From Phycisphaerales bacterium (GTDB taxonomy: Bacteria > Planctomycetota > Phycisphaerae > Phycisphaerales > SM1A02), in the NCBI GenBank assembly GCA_014238205.1, contig JABABM010000002.1, positions 62,001-126,000 of the forward strand: 64,000 nucleotides of DNA, in the 5' to 3' direction. The notes beneath the pieces are model-generated. The model was not told the DNA's origin and made no database searches. It was given only the letters and a program-made list of their open reading frames with translations. A program made the translations under genes and the position numbers. Below, in pieces: positions 30,833 to 55,106 of this stretch (positions are counted from its first letter, which is position 1; every line of letters starts with the position of its first letter).

Positions 30833-31510
30833 TCAGCGGGATGGGGAGGGGGATTCGGAAGCCATATGCTGATCTTCCTGGGGAAGGGAAAGATCCCTGG
30901 CAACCTGCGCGAGGAAACGATGCTCTGCAGCAGGATCTCGTGCTTCGGGTGTCCAGAATACGTTCGAAGATTCTTCCCAGTCCTCGTCATCGAAGGCATG
31001 GGTGGTCTTGCTGTGCAACTGGCGTGACCATGTGTGCAGCCGCTGCCCGACCGTGTGACGACGCTCGCGAAATACCTGCACTCTCAACTCGAGAGGTTCC
31101 TTCGACATGGTCAGGTCGACCGGCTCGGTACCCAGTGCAAGAAGGTCCGGCGCAGTTGACTTGCCTGTGTCCGGCAGAATCCCAACTGGAATGAACTCGA
31201 ATCTCGCCTTCATCCTGTACTGCGACAGCGTGTTTTCAATCCCCTGGGTTACATTGGCGGTGTTGGGATACCAGGGTTCGAGAACTGTTCCGGCGATGAC
31301 GGGATCGGTTTCGATGATCCCATTGCGTCTATCGCGAAGAATCGGATCCATCCCGTTCACCCGGGCCACTTCCAAGGCAGCATTGAATGCATCCGTATAC
31401 TGCCCTGCGGGAATAGTCAGCGTATCTGGGCCCGCAGAACCTGCACAACCCGCCAAAAACAGGTAAAGGCACAGGGAGAAGGGTCCGAAAATACACCAAC
31501 GTTTCAGCAC
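30833..31510 (-). CDS. Lipoprotein of unknown function
   Basis: A 225-residue protein with a lipoprotein signal peptide and lipobox L-A-G-C22. The mature part begins with a possible T-I-P-A-G-Q-Y loop and a helix, D-A-F-N-A-A-L-E-V-A-R. A stretch on disease- or stress-unrelated ground follows with the 'R-R-N-G-I-I-E-T-D' pattern, seen in many planctomycete lipoproteins of unknown role, and the end is charged and polar. No Cys other than those in the signal. It is divergent from the multiheme cytochrome across 167 bases and could share regulation with it. No function is claimed. Confidence 0.7.
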   Translation of the reverse strand: MLKRWCIFGPFSLCLYLFLAGCAGSAGPDTLTIPAGQYTDAFNAALEVARVNGMDPILRDRRNGIIETDPVIAGTVLEPWYPNTANVTQGIENTLSQYRMKARFEFIPVGILPDTGKSTAPDLLALGTEPVDLTMSKEPLELRVQVFRERRHTVGQRLHTWSRQLHSKTTHAFDDEDWEESSNVFWTPEARDPAAEHRFLAQVARDLSLPQEDQHMASESPSPSR

Positions 31511-31677: not shown

Positions 31678-33657
31678 ATGAGAAGAAACCGGTCTGCTAC
31701 CTGGATCGCCCTGGCGATCACGGCTGTAACCCTCTCTGCCGGTGCAGATGGAGTGGGTCGGCCTGCGCAGACAGGGGCCCAGGAACATCCCTCGACTCCC
31801 CATCGTGGATTGCTCCCATTGCCGACAACGGCAAACGATTTCTTCCAACCCGGCACCCAGCCGCGACCAGACACACCTGATGAAGCTCCATTTCACGAGT
31901 TCCAGATCAGCTTCTTCAACTGCCTCAACTGTCATGCACTTGGTCAGAGTGATGACAACCCCCTTGAAGTGACGGGACCCTATGACACCTGGGCAACGAG
32001 CCTGATGGCGCAGTCTGCACGGGATCCCGTCTGGCATGCTGCGCTGGCAATCTCGAACCAGGATGCCACCGGCTCGGGGGAGTACTGCATCCGGTGCCAT
32101 GCGCCCATGGCCTGGGGCAGTGGCCGATCCTCAACAGGTGACATGTCAGAGTTCATCCTGCCAGACGATCTGGATGCGGTCAGTTGCCACTTCTGCCACA
32201 GGGTGGTTGATCCAATCACCAGTTTCGAAAATCCATCCCAGGATTACGACATCCTCCAGGCACTTGTCAACGCTGGAACCTACCCGGACGAACCGGGCAA
32301 TGGTCGTTTCATCTTCGACCCGACGGATACACGCCGTGGTCCCGAGGCGGACTGGGGCGTAAACATGCATGGCGCCGACATCCTCGTTTCACCGCATCAC
32401 GATGAAGGTTCGTTCTGCGCATCCTGCCACGACCTGAGCAACCCCGTCTTCGACCTGCAGCCTGATGGAAGCTATGACCTGAATGCCGTTGACGCCGCCC
32501 ACCCGACACAGGGCGTTCACGACATGTTCCCCGAGCAGCGAACCTTCAGCGAGTGGGAACGAAGTGATTTCGCCAATGGCGGCGTGTACTTTCCGGATGG
32601 ACGGTTCGGTGGTGACATCGATCCCGGCACCTCGATGTCCTCATGCCAGGACTGCCACATGCCCAAGCACTACGGGGGATCCTGCATCTTCTGGTACATC
32701 GAGGAAGTCGGAACAAGCCCGGACATCCCCGATCATGCATTCGTAGGTGCCAACAACTGGGTCATCGGTGCCGTGCATGACATCTATGACATTGATGGAA
32801 ATGCCTACACCGGTCTTACGGATGAATCCGTTGAACGACAGATTTCCCAGACCGAGGCATTCATGGCTGCAGCCTCGGACATGGACCTGGATGTCATCAA
32901 CGATGAACTGCGTGTCACGATCACGAACTGGTCCGGGCACAAGTTGCCAACGGGGTTCCCCGAGGGTCGGCGCATGTGGATCAACATCCAGTTCCAGGAT
33001 GCCGGCGGAGCGATCATCGAGGAATACGGTGGATACGACTACGCCACGGCTGATACGGACCTGATCGGCACCAAGGTCTACGAGATGAAGATCGGCCTGG
33101 ATACCGAGATGGCGACGGCAACGGGAATGCCCGAGGGTGAAACATTCCATGTGACACTCGCCAACACGATTCTGAAGGACAATCGCATCCCGCCCGCGGG
33201 ATTCACCAATGCGGCGTTCGAGGAGATCAAGGCATCACCTGTGGGAGCTACATACGCGGACTACCAGCACTGGGACGAAACCTACTACACCATTCCAGCG
33301 GACACGGAGGAAGCCCTCGTGACGCTCATGTACCAGGCGTCCACGAAGGAGTACATGGAGTTCCTCCGAGATACGGCTCCCACCGATGAAGAAGGGGTGA
33401 ACCCGGGACATGTCGCCTACGACGCCTGGGTCGCCAGGGACATGAGTACCCCCATCATCATGGACAGCCAGGTGATCGAGATCAACCCGACGTTCAACCC
33501 CGCCGATGTGAACCAGGATGGCGAAGTCGACGTCAATGACCTGCTGCTTGTCATCGGTGACTGGGGCTGTACGAGCAGTTGCACGGCCGACATAGATGGG
33601 GACGGCAGCGTGAACGTCACAGACCTGCTGGCCGTCATTGCCAACTGGGGACTCTGA
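31678..33657 (+). CDS. Secreted multiheme cytochrome c with dockerin-like tail
   Basis: A 659-residue exported protein with a signal peptide (about residues 1-22). Five C-x-x-C-H haem-binding motifs lie in the first half: C82, C137, C170, C247 and C323. Residues about 395-590 lack haem motifs, look beta-rich and contain W-S-G-H-K-L-P-T-G, a stretch found in several multihaem cytochromes. The last about 55 residues hold two calcium-type repeats, D-V-N-Q-D-G-E-V-D-V and D-I-D-G-D-G-S-V-N-V, each followed by D-L-L-x-V-I, a dockerin-like pair used widely on secreted Phycisphaerae proteins. The likely role is extracellular or periplasmic electron transfer with attachment through the tail; the donor and acceptor are unknown. 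Confidence 0.85.
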   Translation: MRRNRSATWIALAITAVTLSAGADGVGRPAQTGAQEHPSTPHRGLLPLPTTANDFFQPGTQPRPDTPDEAPFHEFQISFFNCLNCHALGQSDDNPLEVTGPYDTWATSLMAQSARDPVWHAALAISNQDATGSGEYCIRCHAPMAWGSGRSSTGDMSEFILPDDLDAVSCHFCHRVVDPITSFENPSQDYDILQALVNAGTYPDEPGNGRFIFDPTDTRRGPEADWGVNMHGADILVSPHHDEGSFCASCHDLSNPVFDLQPDGSYDLNAVDAAHPTQGVHDMFPEQRTFSEWERSDFANGGVYFPDGRFGGDIDPGTSMSSCQDCHMPKHYGGSCIFWYIEEVGTSPDIPDHAFVGANNWVIGAVHDIYDIDGNAYTGLTDESVERQISQTEAFMAAASDMDLDVINDELRVTITNWSGHKLPTGFPEGRRMWINIQFQDAGGAIIEEYGGYDYATADTDLIGTKVYEMKIGLDTEMATATGMPEGETFHVTLANTILKDNRIPPAGFTNAAFEEIKASPVGATYADYQHWDETYYTIPADTEEALVTLMYQASTKEYMEFLRDTAPTDEEGVNPGHVAYDAWVARDMSTPIIMDSQVIEINPTFNPADVNQDGEVDVNDLLLVIGDWGCTSSCTADIDGDGSVNVTDLLAVIANWGL

Positions 33658-49611: not shown

Positions 49612-49922
49612 TCCTGCCCCTCGGATGTGGAAACCGGGCTTGAAACGGCTCGATTTCCCAGGTCTACCAAGTCGTCGGCAGGTTCCAGGGGCTCCTGAAG
49701 CGGGAGGTGGAAATAGACCCGGAATCGGTCTCCAGCATGTCCTGACCGATAATCAACCCCCGCTGGATGGTCTTGAATTGGCAATTCAAAGCGATCAGGA
49801 CGATCACAGCGATTGAGCGTGTCGATGTAGTCTGTAGGGACTGAAGAGTATTTCTCCTGGGAACGCGACCATGGAATTCGTGAAATGTATGTATGCAAGC
49901 ATTGCCTGCGTGGTGGTCGCAT
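49608..49922 (-). CDS. Possible small protein upstream of the lipoprotein
   Basis: A reading frame of at most 104 codons that ends four bases inside the lipoprotein gene (ATGA). Its second half (D-R-F-R-V-Y-F-H-L-P, then an acidic stretch) looks like a real protein. Its only ATG start (49922) lies 52 bases inside the TpsB gene on the other strand, and no good start is found closer. It may be real with an unusual start, or a chance frame. Confidence 0.3.
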   Translation of the reverse strand: MRPPRRQCLHTYISRIPWSRSQEKYSSVPTDYIDTLNRCDRPDRFELPIQDHPAGVDYRSGHAGDRFRVYFHLPLQEPLEPADDLVDLGNRAVSSPVSTSEGQE

Positions 49923-51754
49923 GCGCCTCCCAGTCGATGGCTGTCGACATCACCCCGACCGAGTCCCAGGATGGATACGTCTATGGTGTTTCCGACTTCA
50001 ACTTGAAATGGAATCACGAGCACCCAGATCTGCCCTCGATGGAATCTCTCCTGTCAATGCCGCTTGCATTGACGAAGACGAGTGAAGGGTGGATCGGGCC
50101 CAGGGCTGATCATGTAGTCCTCACGTCGCTCAATGAGATCAATGCCGCCGGCGGAGGAACCTTCTGGTCGTCGGCGCTGGGAACCATTTCGACCAGCCTG
50201 TCTGCAAAGTTGATCCAGGACGGGCTCATGGGCGTCTTCGTTACGGTCGACCAGTCACAAATCAGTGCTTCCGCGGCTTCTCTTGGACAGGATCTTCGGG
50301 AGGGGTGGGATCTTGAACTCGCCTACATCATGACGGTCGGCCAGATTTCCGAGGTCAGGACAGTCGCTGCTGGCGACCGACTGGATTCGGAAGTTGGAAT
50401 CAACAACCCCATCCACCAGCAGATCATCAAGGATTCACCGCTACAAGGGAACTCTGATGGATCGCCGGGAGATCTTCTTTGGCGCAAACAACTTGAGGAG
50501 TATTTCCTGTACCTGAGTCGACATCCCGGCCGTACGGTTGAGGCGTCCGTTGCAGCTTCCACACAACCAGGCGGGGTATCACTGGACTTTCTGGTACGGG
50601 AGAACAAGCCGCTTACTCTCTTTGTTGAAATGTCGAATACAGGTACATCGCAGGAAGGCTACTTCCGACAGCGATATGGCCTGTTCCACTCGCAACTGAC
50701 GGGAAATGATGACACCCTGTCGTTGACGTACCTCACCTCCGACTTCGATCGATCGAATGCATTCTTTGGAAAGTACGATGCAAGGTTGCCTGGCACGGAT
50801 CGGATGCGATGGAGTGTTGCGGGTGACTGGAGCCAGTTTGTTGCCGATGAGTTTGGCATCCTGACCGATGCATTCGAAGGTAATTCCTGGTCCGTCACGG
50901 GAGATGTGACAGCGAACATTGCACAGAACGGATCATTCTTCCTCGATGTCGTTGCGGGACTTCGATACCAGCACCTCTTCGTTCGGAACAACTTGTTCCA
51001 AATCGAAAGCAGTGTCGAATGCCTTCTGCCCATCATCATGCTTGAAGCGGACCATCTCGGGGATTGGTCGAACTTCACGGGCACCGTGGGACTCGAGTTC
51101 AACACCCTGGGAAACAGCGAGGAAGACCTGGTGCTGATGGGACGGTTCGATCCATCGGAGAACTGGGCAAGGATGAACTGGAGCCTTACGAACTGGGTGT
51201 TTCTCGAGCCCCTCCTGAACCCGGTCGCATGGGCCGATCCATCCACTCCGGAGTCATCCACGCTTGCCCACGAGGTGATGTTGTCATTCAGTGGCCAGTA
51301 TGCCTTCAACAGTCGCCTGATTCCCCAGTTCCAGGGTGTCCTTGGTGGCATGTACTCGGTTCGAGGCTATCCCCAGTCTGTTGCGGCTGGTGATTCGACG
51401 CTGCTGGGGAAGGCGGAGTACCGGTTTCACGTACCTAGGGTCTTCGCGATCGATCCAGTTCCCATTGAATTTCTCGGGGATCCCTTCCGTGCATCCCCCC
51501 AGCATGTCTATGGACGACCCGATTGGGATCTGATGCTCTGCGCATTCATCGATGCCGGCACGACGATGCAGTCACACCGTGCATTTTTCGAAACGGATAA
51601 CACGCTGATCGGAACGGGTGTTGGTTTCGAAATCCTGTACAAGCAGAACATCCGCTTCAGGCTCGACTGGGGCTTCCCTCTGAAGGATCTTCCTGCAGCG
51701 GGTGTCAAAGTCGGAGACGAGCGTGTCTATGTCTCCGGTTCGATCGTGTTCTAG
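49871..51754 (+). CDS. TpsB-type outer membrane transporter (ShlB/FhaC family)
   Basis: A 627-residue outer-membrane protein of the Omp85/TpsB superfamily. A signal peptide (residues about 1-24, A-S-Q-S-M-A) is followed by an N-terminal part of about 200 residues in the POTRA position. A beta-barrel of about 400 residues has aromatic strand ends and ends in Phe. The V-R-G-Y motif that sits inside the barrel pore of all family members is near residue 496 (G-M-Y-S-V-R-G-Y). It should secrete the TpsA-like protein encoded next. TpsB proteins are usually about 560 residues; the extra length is in the N-terminal half. ATG 49886 is an alternative start. Confidence 0.88.
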   Translation: MEFVKCMYASIACVVVACASQSMAVDITPTESQDGYVYGVSDFNLKWNHEHPDLPSMESLLSMPLALTKTSEGWIGPRADHVVLTSLNEINAAGGGTFWSSALGTISTSLSAKLIQDGLMGVFVTVDQSQISASAASLGQDLREGWDLELAYIMTVGQISEVRTVAAGDRLDSEVGINNPIHQQIIKDSPLQGNSDGSPGDLLWRKQLEEYFLYLSRHPGRTVEASVAASTQPGGVSLDFLVRENKPLTLFVEMSNTGTSQEGYFRQRYGLFHSQLTGNDDTLSLTYLTSDFDRSNAFFGKYDARLPGTDRMRWSVAGDWSQFVADEFGILTDAFEGNSWSVTGDVTANIAQNGSFFLDVVAGLRYQHLFVRNNLFQIESSVECLLPIIMLEADHLGDWSNFTGTVGLEFNTLGNSEEDLVLMGRFDPSENWARMNWSLTNWVFLEPLLNPVAWADPSTPESSTLAHEVMLSFSGQYAFNSRLIPQFQGVLGGMYSVRGYPQSVAAGDSTLLGKAEYRFHVPRVFAIDPVPIEFLGDPFRASPQHVYGRPDWDLMLCAFIDAGTTMQSHRAFFETDNTLIGTGVGFEILYKQNIRFRLDWGFPLKDLPAAGVKVGDERVYVSGSIVF

Positions 51755-51905: not shown

Positions 51906-51974
51906 TTCCATGGTCCTCTTCAGGGGATTCCGGGTGCAGTGGGACTCAATGCCCGCTTTCAGGGACATGAACCA

Positions 51975-54900
51975 GTGAAAGAGATGCTTACGTCCATCAT
52001 GAATATGGTGTGCATTCCGCTACGCCGCTGGAGCAGGCTGCTTGCAGCAGTCGCCGCAGGGTGGCTTGGGACGGTTGCATTCGCCATACCCGACGGTGGA
52101 ACGTGGGAATATGGAAATGGAACCATCACCTACAGCGGTGGTGGAACAACCCTCACGATCAATGCTTCTTCCAACAGCAGCATCATCAACTGGCTTCGCT
52201 TCAATATCGCCAATGGGGAGAGCGTCTTCTTCAACCTCCCCGGCTCCTCGTCGCGAGTACTCAATCGCATCAATGCAGCAAACGGCATCTCCTTCATCAA
52301 TGGAGTGCTTGCATCGAATGGGCAGGTCTACCTGGTGAATCCAGCAGGCATCACCTTCGGGGCCAACTCGATCCTGAATGCAAACCGCATCTACGCAGCG
52401 GCGGGTGACATGAGTTCCGATGATTTCCTTACCGGCATCGACCGCTTCACGAACCTCCAGGGAGAAATCATCAACCAGGGCTCGGTCACAGCGAACGAGG
52501 TCCATTTCGTCGGACATCGTGTCGTGAATGACACGACCGGCGTCGTCCAGGGCGGATTGATCAGCTTCAGCACGGGAAACGAGGTATGGATTCAACGCGT
52601 TGGAGACGGTATCTCCATCCGAATCGATGGACAGGACCTTGGAGATCCGCAGGAAGGGACAGTCAACGCATCACTTGACGGTGCCGGAGGCATCGAGAAT
52701 CACGGCTCCATCATCGCCGATCCCGGAGGCGCGATACATCTCGCGGCCGGTGACCTGCATGGTCTTGCACTGCTGAATACCGGCACGATCCAGGCGTCCG
52801 GAGGAACCATCCAGCTCACAGCTCGAGGCGGAGCGATACACAATGACGTGACAGGCGTCATCGACGCTTCCAACAGCACTGGTGATGGTGGCAACGTCCT
52901 TATCCAGGGGCCCGTCATCGTCAACCGCGGTCTCATTGCCGCAAATACGGATGCTGTCGGCGGCGAAGCCGGAACGATCGACGTCCGGGCGCATACGAAC
53001 GCCATCTTCACGGAGACCAGCAATGTCGAAGCCCGTGGCAACATTGCCGGGAGCGGTGGTGAAATAAACATCGAGGCAACAAATGGAACCGTCTACCTTG
53101 CCGAAGGTGGAACGCTCGATGTCAAGGGCGGCCTCCTTGGTGGAGACGGCGGCTCCGTCTCGATCACCGGAGGCCAGGTTTACCACAGAGCCACGACAAA
53201 GGTCGGGGCAATCAATGGCGCTGACGGCTCACTCTCCGTCACCGTTGACGAAAGCATTGTCACGACCGACGCATCCGTCGGGGACCCGGTGGGAGATCCT
53301 TCCGGCCTGGACCTGACTTCCGCAATCAATGTCACCAGCCAGATCGGAACCAATGTCCTGCACATGTTCGATGGAGATGTCTCGATCGACTCCTCGGAGA
53401 ACGTCTCCGTCATTGACGGGTTTGATCTGAATGGACATGACCTGGACATCAATGCAGGAAGCAACATCAATCTCTTCAACGAAGTCACAGGATTGAATGA
53501 TTTCACGCTTACTGCAGGCAACACGATCGAGTTCGGTGACAGTTTCACGGATATTGCCGGTAACGCCGCATTCACCGCGACCGAGATCAGGATCAACGCT
53601 TCTTCCCCCGTCTCCATCGAGACAGGTGGTTGGCAGACCTGGGATGGCGATGTCGTTCTGCAGGAAACAGACCTTTCCGTAACCGCGGAATCAGCTGAAT
53701 TCACCGGCACGATTGATTCGGACGGTCCAATGCATGCTTCCGAACTGAGCATCGATGTCGATGGTGAACTGCAGATTCTCGGTTCGATCGGTGCAAACGG
53801 GACCCTTGGTGCGATCGACCTGTCAGCAGACCTGATCACGCTCGGTGGAACTGAAATCAACGCCTTCGGTGACATCCTCCTGAATGCGGACGGTCATGCC
53901 GAGTTCGGTGATGTTGCAACCATCGTCGGGCTCGCGGATTCTCTTTCAATCACCTCTTTCCTGGGCGACATCCTGCTCGGGCAGAACGAGGTCTTTACCC
54001 AACTGGGCGATCTCTCCATGGAATCCGCTGGACTGGTCAGGATCGGCGACATCAATACCCTTGGCGATTTCAGCGTAACTGCGCCCGACATCGAGATCAT
54101 GAGTCGTGAAGGCGGTGACATACTCCAGTCTGATGGCACCTATGCATTCTCCCCTGGTGTTGCATGCATCGCCGGTGGCTCCATCTTCTTCTCAAGCACG
54201 CCGACCATACTTGGGTCTCTTGGTGCCGATCCGGTATTTGCTTCGGCCGAGGAATCAAGTTCATTCGTCTCAACCCTCAGTGGTTTCGAGACCATGCAGA
54301 TTGAACCTCTGGACATAAGCGACTTCACCTTCGGGGACGTGGTCCTCAATCTTCATCCCGTTCCAGCAGACGATGGAGGCGGAGATGATCCGGCAAACGG
54401 TAACGATGACTCTTCCCCCGGAGGAACGACACAAGGTGATCTGCCGGGATTGAACATCAGTTCCCTGCTTGCTTCCGCTGAACAGGTCGGTGCGACTGAA
54501 GACGGTCCACTGGTAATCGAGGATCCAGAAGAAGGCGTTCTTGCCGATTCCGAGGGTCTCATCGTCACGGCTACCGACCTTTCAATCGAGGTGGAAGTCC
54601 TTTCGGAGAATCCTGATGATCAACAGGGGTCCCTTACCCGGTCGGATATTCTCGCCAACTATCCTGTGAACAGCGTCAACCCGACCACTGGAAACATCCG
54701 GGTCAAGCAACGACGGTTGAATCGCACCATGCTTCGCAAGAGCCTTGGGAAGTACCAGGAGCTGCTTGCGATGCAGCCAGGTGACGTCGAGGCCAACCTC
54801 GAGAACAACAACACGACTCACATTGCAGATTCAATCAACTCCGCCTGGGCCGAGTATTCCGAGTCCCGGGAGGGCCAGGCCACTGGCGCCGGCTTCGGGG

Positions 54901-55106
54901 ATTGGGTGGAGTCGAATGCAGGGCAGGTGGAAACCCGGCAGTACATCCGCGACCTGCAGGAGGTCTTCAGCGACCTCAACAGGAGCGGGCTCAGCAGTGG
55001 GGAGTTCAACTACGCCCGAAACAGAACGATTCAACGGATCATGGAAAGCAGCACTGGGCCGAGTGGGATGACATCATCGCAACTCAGTGCCACACTGGGA
55101 TCCTGA
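51975..55106 (+). CDS. TpsA-type secreted exoprotein (filamentous haemagglutinin-like)
   Basis: A 1043-residue exported protein. A long signal peptide with a polar n-region and core A-A-V-A-A-G-W-L-G-T-V-A-F-A precedes the TPS secretion domain (residues about 38-270). That domain has F-N-I-A-N-G-E-S-V and V-N-P-A-G-I-T-F-G (the N-P-N-G-I counterpart). The middle (about 270-780) is a Gly/Asp/Asn-rich right-handed beta-helix of irregular repeats. An acidic Gly/Pro linker follows (about 795-830), then an unusual basic, helical C-terminal domain of about 200 residues. No Cys pair is seen at the C-terminus. GTG 51975 is chosen for its AGGGA site nine bases upstream; ATG 51984 and GTG 51939 are alternatives. 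Confidence 0.85.
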   Translation: MKEMLTSIMNMVCIPLRRWSRLLAAVAAGWLGTVAFAIPDGGTWEYGNGTITYSGGGTTLTINASSNSSIINWLRFNIANGESVFFNLPGSSSRVLNRINAANGISFINGVLASNGQVYLVNPAGITFGANSILNANRIYAAAGDMSSDDFLTGIDRFTNLQGEIINQGSVTANEVHFVGHRVVNDTTGVVQGGLISFSTGNEVWIQRVGDGISIRIDGQDLGDPQEGTVNASLDGAGGIENHGSIIADPGGAIHLAAGDLHGLALLNTGTIQASGGTIQLTARGGAIHNDVTGVIDASNSTGDGGNVLIQGPVIVNRGLIAANTDAVGGEAGTIDVRAHTNAIFTETSNVEARGNIAGSGGEINIEATNGTVYLAEGGTLDVKGGLLGGDGGSVSITGGQVYHRATTKVGAINGADGSLSVTVDESIVTTDASVGDPVGDPSGLDLTSAINVTSQIGTNVLHMFDGDVSIDSSENVSVIDGFDLNGHDLDINAGSNINLFNEVTGLNDFTLTAGNTIEFGDSFTDIAGNAAFTATEIRINASSPVSIETGGWQTWDGDVVLQETDLSVTAESAEFTGTIDSDGPMHASELSIDVDGELQILGSIGANGTLGAIDLSADLITLGGTEINAFGDILLNADGHAEFGDVATIVGLADSLSITSFLGDILLGQNEVFTQLGDLSMESAGLVRIGDINTLGDFSVTAPDIEIMSREGGDILQSDGTYAFSPGVACIAGGSIFFSSTPTILGSLGADPVFASAEESSSFVSTLSGFETMQIEPLDISDFTFGDVVLNLHPVPADDGGGDDPANGNDDSSPGGTTQGDLPGLNISSLLASAEQVGATEDGPLVIEDPEEGVLADSEGLIVTATDLSIEVEVLSENPDDQQGSLTRSDILANYPVNSVNPTTGNIRVKQRRLNRTMLRKSLGKYQELLAMQPGDVEANLENNNTTHIADSINSAWAEYSESREGQATGAGFGDWVESNAGQVETRQYIRDLQEVFSDLNRSGLSSGEFNYARNRTIQRIMESSTGPSGMTSSQLSATLGS

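Follow-up and report, generated by a model that had tools for sequence, protein, structure and literature searches.

What is a multihaem cytochrome doing with a dockerin-like tail? The question arises from one open reading frame (31678–33657, plus strand, ATG to TGA, 659 amino acids) in the window, by which we mean the whole 64,000-nucleotide stretch analysed. A sequence-only reading of this DNA had proposed that five CxxCH motifs and two calcium-type dockerin repeats occur together in one exported protein, and that the tail attaches the cytochrome to a cell-surface partner for electron transfer. The first part is borne out by the motif positions. Against the five CxxCH motifs of the actual protein, 20,000 shuffles of its sequence gave two at most, with at least two in a single shuffle, and a strict calcium loop arose in 2 of the 20,000. 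Pfam Dockerin_1 (PF00404) scored 30.5 bits on residues 609–655, compared with a cut-off of 22.9.

The protein, all of whose features lie on the plus strand, can be divided into four regions. The first (approximately residues 1–44, 31678–31809) is a probable Sec signal peptide with a linker, assigned by eye: an arginine-rich start followed by a hydrophobic stretch and small residues suggests export. Residues 1–37 have pLDDT values below 50 in the AlphaFold2 model, and the alignment with homologues begins around residue 44. The pentahaem domain (residues 72–395, 31891–32862), supported by the match to 5ze8, contains the haem sites CLNCH at residue 82 (31921–31935), CIRCH at 137 (32086–32100), CHFCH at 170 (32185–32199), CASCH at 247 (32416–32430), and CQDCH at 323 (32644–32658). 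It is followed by a beta-rich Ig-like domain (residues ~398–606, 32869–33495), defined by the AlphaFold strands and lying within the 5ze8 match, and by the dockerin-type C-terminal tag (residues 605–659, 33490–33654), which was recognised by PF00404, by a fold match and by matches to tails across the genome. The tag has two strict EF-hand-like loops, DVNQDGEVDVND (residues 610–621, 33505–33540) and DIDGDGSVNVTD (residues 638–649, 33589–33624), which might bind calcium. The tail of the model superimposes on the solved dockerin 2y3n_B with a Z-score of 8.9 at 2.1 Å over 56 residues. With the gathering score passed, two calcium loops and the dockerin fold, the tail belongs to the type I dockerins (PF00404).

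The haem-binding core is strongly conserved. Any match to the window cytochrome was found in 35 of the 41 genomes searched, many of them to the tail alone; 24 of these genomes yielded homologues that cover the core (loci L031–L054), and all five CxxCH motifs are present in 24/24 of the core-covering proteins, including that of the own genome. One of them (L053), in which the frame is broken, was omitted from the alignment of this set (A1). A larger planctomycete alignment comprises 76 proteins, namely the window protein and 75 of 80 named loci, the other five having been omitted for a wrong frame (L089, L116), truncation by a contig end (L113, L118) or runs of N (L127); a domain alignment (A3) includes 59 of the 76. 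The best named relatives are from Phycisphaerae/Phycisphaerales MAGs. Each of the five haem sites is retained in 76/76 aligned proteins, as are H231, H353 and H421 (100%), with H241 at 95% and H491 at 96%. H421, part of a GHKLPTG motif, and H491 lie in the Ig-like domain. Judging from this conservation, the five histidines might be the distal ligands, five candidates for five haems.

The predicted structure led to a known family. AlphaFold2 with the family alignment (A2) gave a model with a pLDDT of 88.7 and a pTM of 0.86. Fold lists for the whole model were crowded by Ig-like domains, and the sole Foldseek match at E ≤ 0.001 was Thermochromatium tepidum cytochrome c552 (5ze8, E 2.7e-14), to which VIA-align assigned a Z-score of 22.8 at 2.9 Å for 339 aligned residues with 22% identity. 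The family profile also reached 5ze8 by sequence (E 1.4e-5). The pentahaem domain alone had no Foldseek match at E ≤ 0.001; VIA on a candidate list of 20 chains placed 5ze8 first (Z 13.1), followed by lower scores for NrfA (7.0), octahaem nitrite reductase (6.8) and OcwA (5.4). Five c-type haem motifs were thus found together with the pentahaem and Ig-like fold of 5ze8, and by its predicted structure the core of the window protein is a pentahaem cytochrome of the PHC/cytochrome c552-like kind. The haem-motif conservation, the 5ze8 fold and the 2y3n_B match agree with the earlier view of a multihaem c-type cytochrome bearing a genuine dockerin-fold tail. The ExtKL model matched 58 of the 76 family members at E ≤ 0.01; the window protein itself reached 8.2 bits on the ExtKL equivalog model NF040886, far below the cut-off of 250, so it is kin to ExtKL and not ExtKL.

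The same fold comparisons bear on the possibility that the protein is not an electron carrier and instead an enzyme, similar to a nitrite, sulfite or selenite reductase or to a peroxidase, with one pentacoordinate haem. The pentahaem domain does resemble NrfA and octahaem nitrite reductase, the accessible part of PMC11976967 predicts a pentacoordinate haem for cable-bacterium PHCs, and that of PMC5877670, on the Geobacter ext cluster, presents ExtKL as a candidate in selenite reduction. However, Z-scores of about 7 are within reach of unrelated folds, and the likeness to NrfA, octahaem nitrite reductase and OcwA is weaker than that to 5ze8. The NrfA-type catalytic CxxCK is absent from the window protein, the motif being CxxCH at all five sites in 76/76 proteins, and five conserved candidates for the distal histidine are available for five haems. 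We therefore consider the enzyme interpretation unlikely.

The surroundings of the gene offered few clues to a redox partner. On its strand the gene is isolated, with a lipoprotein-like ORF (30833–31510, minus strand), which has no Pfam match and whose relatives adjoin the cytochrome in 16 loci, on one side and a carbamoyltransferase-family gene with OTCace domains on the other; nuo genes and an ABC permease gene are also neighbours. No redox operon or partner was found near the cytochrome gene, and the 16 loci show housekeeping genes and the lipoprotein-like gene. A search for MtrB/PioB porins in the own genome, a MAG of 2.44 Mb in 78 contigs with 95% completeness (G000), gave 0 matches at E ≤ 1, and other porins could serve. 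A search for PF01578 haem-assembly proteins found none in this genome; 37 of the 41 genomes searched, among them G001 of the same genus, have one, and the absence here is likely to be a gap in the MAG. A whole-genome count of CxxCH (402 sites, and 78 in the reversed control), for which only the first places are among the matches listed, was set aside because the control ignores codon context. Elsewhere in the own genome, a second ORF with five CxxCH motifs (L149:3572–6238, plus strand, 888 amino acids) has no tail by the simple calcium-loop pattern. The window also contains a ShlB-type transporter (49871–51754) beside a 1055-amino-acid protein with a TPS secretion domain (51939–55106, both plus strand), likely a two-partner secretion pair; the exoprotein is not among the tail-profile matches of the own genome.

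Is the tail peculiar to the cytochrome? A profile built from local tails (A4; 19 of 25 tails, that is, 24 and the cytochrome's) gave 105 matches in the 2.44-Mb genome, which merge into 93–97 places, and the same genome has 49 Dockerin_1 matches at E ≤ 0.01 and 44 matches to NF041540, the GC-type dockerin model. A stop codon follows within 12 amino acids of the tail in 24 of the 30 NF041540 loci fetched. Residues D4, D15, L17, W23, D32, D43, L44, L45 and W51 are invariant in the 19 tails chosen from the 25. Ten tail carriers scanned with Pfam represent unrelated functions, among them an M14 peptidase (zinc carboxypeptidase), an esterase, FG-GAP and PMP-repeat proteins and a glucose/sorbosone dehydrogenase. 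Because about 90 other proteins carry the tag, it is better seen as a general label for delivery or anchoring than as a special connection for electron transfer. In one place of the own genome (L150:1440–2195, minus strand), a protein adjoining a dockerin-tailed one has a C-terminal stretch that we take to be a PEP-CTERM-like motif; this genome may thus use two kinds of C-terminal label.

The cohesin-like receptors that had been suggested as a check were sought in the own genome, and PF00963 gave 0 matches at E ≤ 10 in this 95% complete MAG, in which a cohesin could have diverged strongly or fallen into a gap. Among the 41 genomes, six have any cohesin match at E ≤ 0.01 and three have one above the cut-off. 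With 93–97 similar tails on unrelated proteins and no Pfam cohesin found, the proposed link to a dedicated surface partner loses its footing. The sequence-only reading had itself named the contrary outcome, a generic sorting signal present on most secreted proteins and having no receptor; the generic signal and the missing receptor are largely what we observed, on tails that are not necessarily those of most secreted proteins.

The tails differ between lineages. We compared 48 tails from seven genomes, using the 24 of 30 own-genome loci that end at a stop; from the 28 typed loci of six other genomes, four without a C-terminal tail were dropped, and L175 and L181 were left out. Overall, the cytochrome tail is nearer to the tails of its own genome (difference 0.12; 0 of 5000 label permutations). 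Row by row, the highest value fell to the own genome in 4 of 7 cases, with one tie and two lower, and the lead in the G000 row was just 0.47 compared with 0.46. A second comparison was restricted to named contigs on which further ORFs with a tail lie no more than about 8 kb from the cytochrome; 22 such contigs were reduced to 21 by dropping a neighbour (L134) homologous to the cytochrome. The tails of a contig's own neighbours were closer than distant cytochrome tails (core identity below 0.5) were on average in 21/21 contigs and closer than the best of these distant tails in 17/21. They were closer than the nearest cytochrome's tail in 5/21, the cores there being 57–66% identical to the nearest relative; in 16/21 contigs the tail follows the core at short distance. 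These results indicate that close relatives inherit tail and core as a unit and that over longer distances the tail resembles those of its own genome. Beyond short distance, the evolution of the tag is that of a lineage "dialect", uncoupled from the cytochrome core.

The forms that the tail takes are varied. A regular double-loop tail is present on 56 of the 75 named cytochromes. Three others (L091, L103, L114) keep a shared tag (ADLAPPFG...) though its calcium residues are gone, and their tags are alike among neighbours, with up to 96% identity. Some homologues end in an unrelated beta-type domain, and for two of these (L110, L130) a neighbour carries the same domain. Tail-less homologues occur in G010, G035 and G039, genomes with 1, 9 and 4 Dockerin_1 matches (E ≤ 0.01), respectively, compared with the 49 of the own genome. 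G023 has a tailed cytochrome, yet only 6 Dockerin_1 matches (E ≤ 0.001), so the link between tail presence and tag abundance is loose.

The reading that we favour, with a probability of roughly 70%, is that of an exported five-haem PHC/c552-like cytochrome that a general dockerin-type tag brings to the outer envelope or keeps there. The protein would cross the inner membrane of a planctomycete of the Phycisphaerales type and be loaded with five haems, and its C-terminal tag would take it to the outer part of the envelope or retain it there, so that cytochrome and many other proteins might share one envelope compartment. A common reader, either a receptor or a sorting machine and not a recognisable cohesin, could recognise all tags of the genome. 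In its place, the cytochrome probably relays electrons among partners that are soluble or located in the envelope, and it may have a part in extracellular electron transfer. Against this reading stand the missing PF01578 haem-assembly protein in the own genome, the own genome being best in just 4 of the 7 rows, the 16/21 contigs in which the tail follows the core, and the low score of the window protein (8.2 bits) on the ExtKL model.

The dialect pattern suggests one common partner, not a recognisable cohesin, for all tags of a genome, and it predicts a receptor gene that co-varies with them. A conserved protein with swappable tails might thus help to reveal what reads the dockerin-type tails so abundant in planctomycetes in which no cohesin can be recognised. 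In a bolder version, which we put forward only tentatively, planctomycetes would possess a genome-wide tag system with lineage dialects and a single non-cohesin reader, and would use it to display at the surface a pentahaem cytochrome of the ExtKL/c552 type, which would be related to one that forms nanowires. The core would stay while the tag is rewritten into the local dialect, for which the observed forms include FFDVSAFL, SPADFNAWI, GADLGLLL, VxVxDLLxVI, forms without calcium residues and the unrelated beta domain.

The same pattern could also arise from copying of tails between genes of one genome, with no receptor involved. The tail might then be a cap for folding or stability, or an inert leftover spread by recombination, that binds calcium and has no partner. 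Such copying predicts concerted, genome-specific tail sequences, and both the tail-less homologues and the tags retained after loss of the calcium residues (L091, L103, L114) are in its favour. Strong conservation within a genome on dozens of unrelated proteins would, however, be unexpected for an inert tail, and homologues without a dockerin (L110, L130) bear another C-terminal domain that is shared with a neighbour; we find this explanation decidedly doubtful. We regard it as very unlikely that the tail docks the cytochrome onto a surface scaffold of its own that hands electrons on to minerals or neighbouring cells. In favour of such a scaffold are the dockerin fold with intact calcium loops, the papers that place ExtKL and cable-bacterium PHC, both relatives within the PHC family, in a context of extracellular electron transfer (accessible part of PMC11976967; for the ExtKL family also PMC5877670), and the cohesin/dockerin "planctosome" proposed for freshwater Phycisphaerae (accessible part of PMC6461901). 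Against it, the tail is common to 93–97 places of a genome in which neither a cohesin (E ≤ 10) nor an MtrB-type porin (E ≤ 1) was detected, and no redox operon was found around the gene.

A putatively exported cytochrome with a general C-terminal tag can be compared with several known systems. Like the cellulosome, the "planctosome" and the dockerin/cohesin proteins described for ANME archaea in the accessible part of PMC9012536, the tail has a dockerin fold with calcium loops; unlike cohesin-dockerin systems, its own genome contains no detectable cohesin. The proteins anchored by GC-type dockerin domains (NF041540) likewise carry a C-terminal double-loop tag on many proteins, and this is the nearest NCBIfam tail model, although the cytochrome's own tail, at 22.9 bits, falls short of the 29-bit cut-off that 12 other tails of the own genome exceed. 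As to the core, T. tepidum cytochrome c552 has five haems according to its structure title and shares the fold over the 339 residues, and the CQxCHMP and H-x-x-PTG motifs align; its chain of 385–435 residues is shorter than the 659 of the window protein, and the match does not include the dockerin part. The archaeal nanowire cytochrome AvECN, to which c552 may be related according to PMC11976967 in its accessible part, was not among the matches listed in the fold searches with the whole model or the pentahaem domain, an absence from a list that excludes nothing. The same text groups ExtKL, Gsu2801 and the cable-bacterium PHCs as structurally homologous to c552 and describes their architecture as a pentahaem domain plus an Ig-like domain. 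Among the papers listed on multiheme cytochromes with dockerins and on planctomycete dockerins, none is indicated as dealing with a dockerin-tailed pentahaem cytochrome from planctomycetes. The window protein shares the pentahaem and Ig-like domains with the PHC family (Geobacter ExtKL/Gsu2801, cable-bacterium sPHC/lPHC) and differs from it in having no ext-like cluster, the porin ExtI, ExtM and ExtN genes not being found beside the cytochrome gene, and in the added dockerin tag. The cytochrome broadens the PHC/ExtKL kind by a planctomycete branch that is widespread and bears a putative envelope tag in addition.
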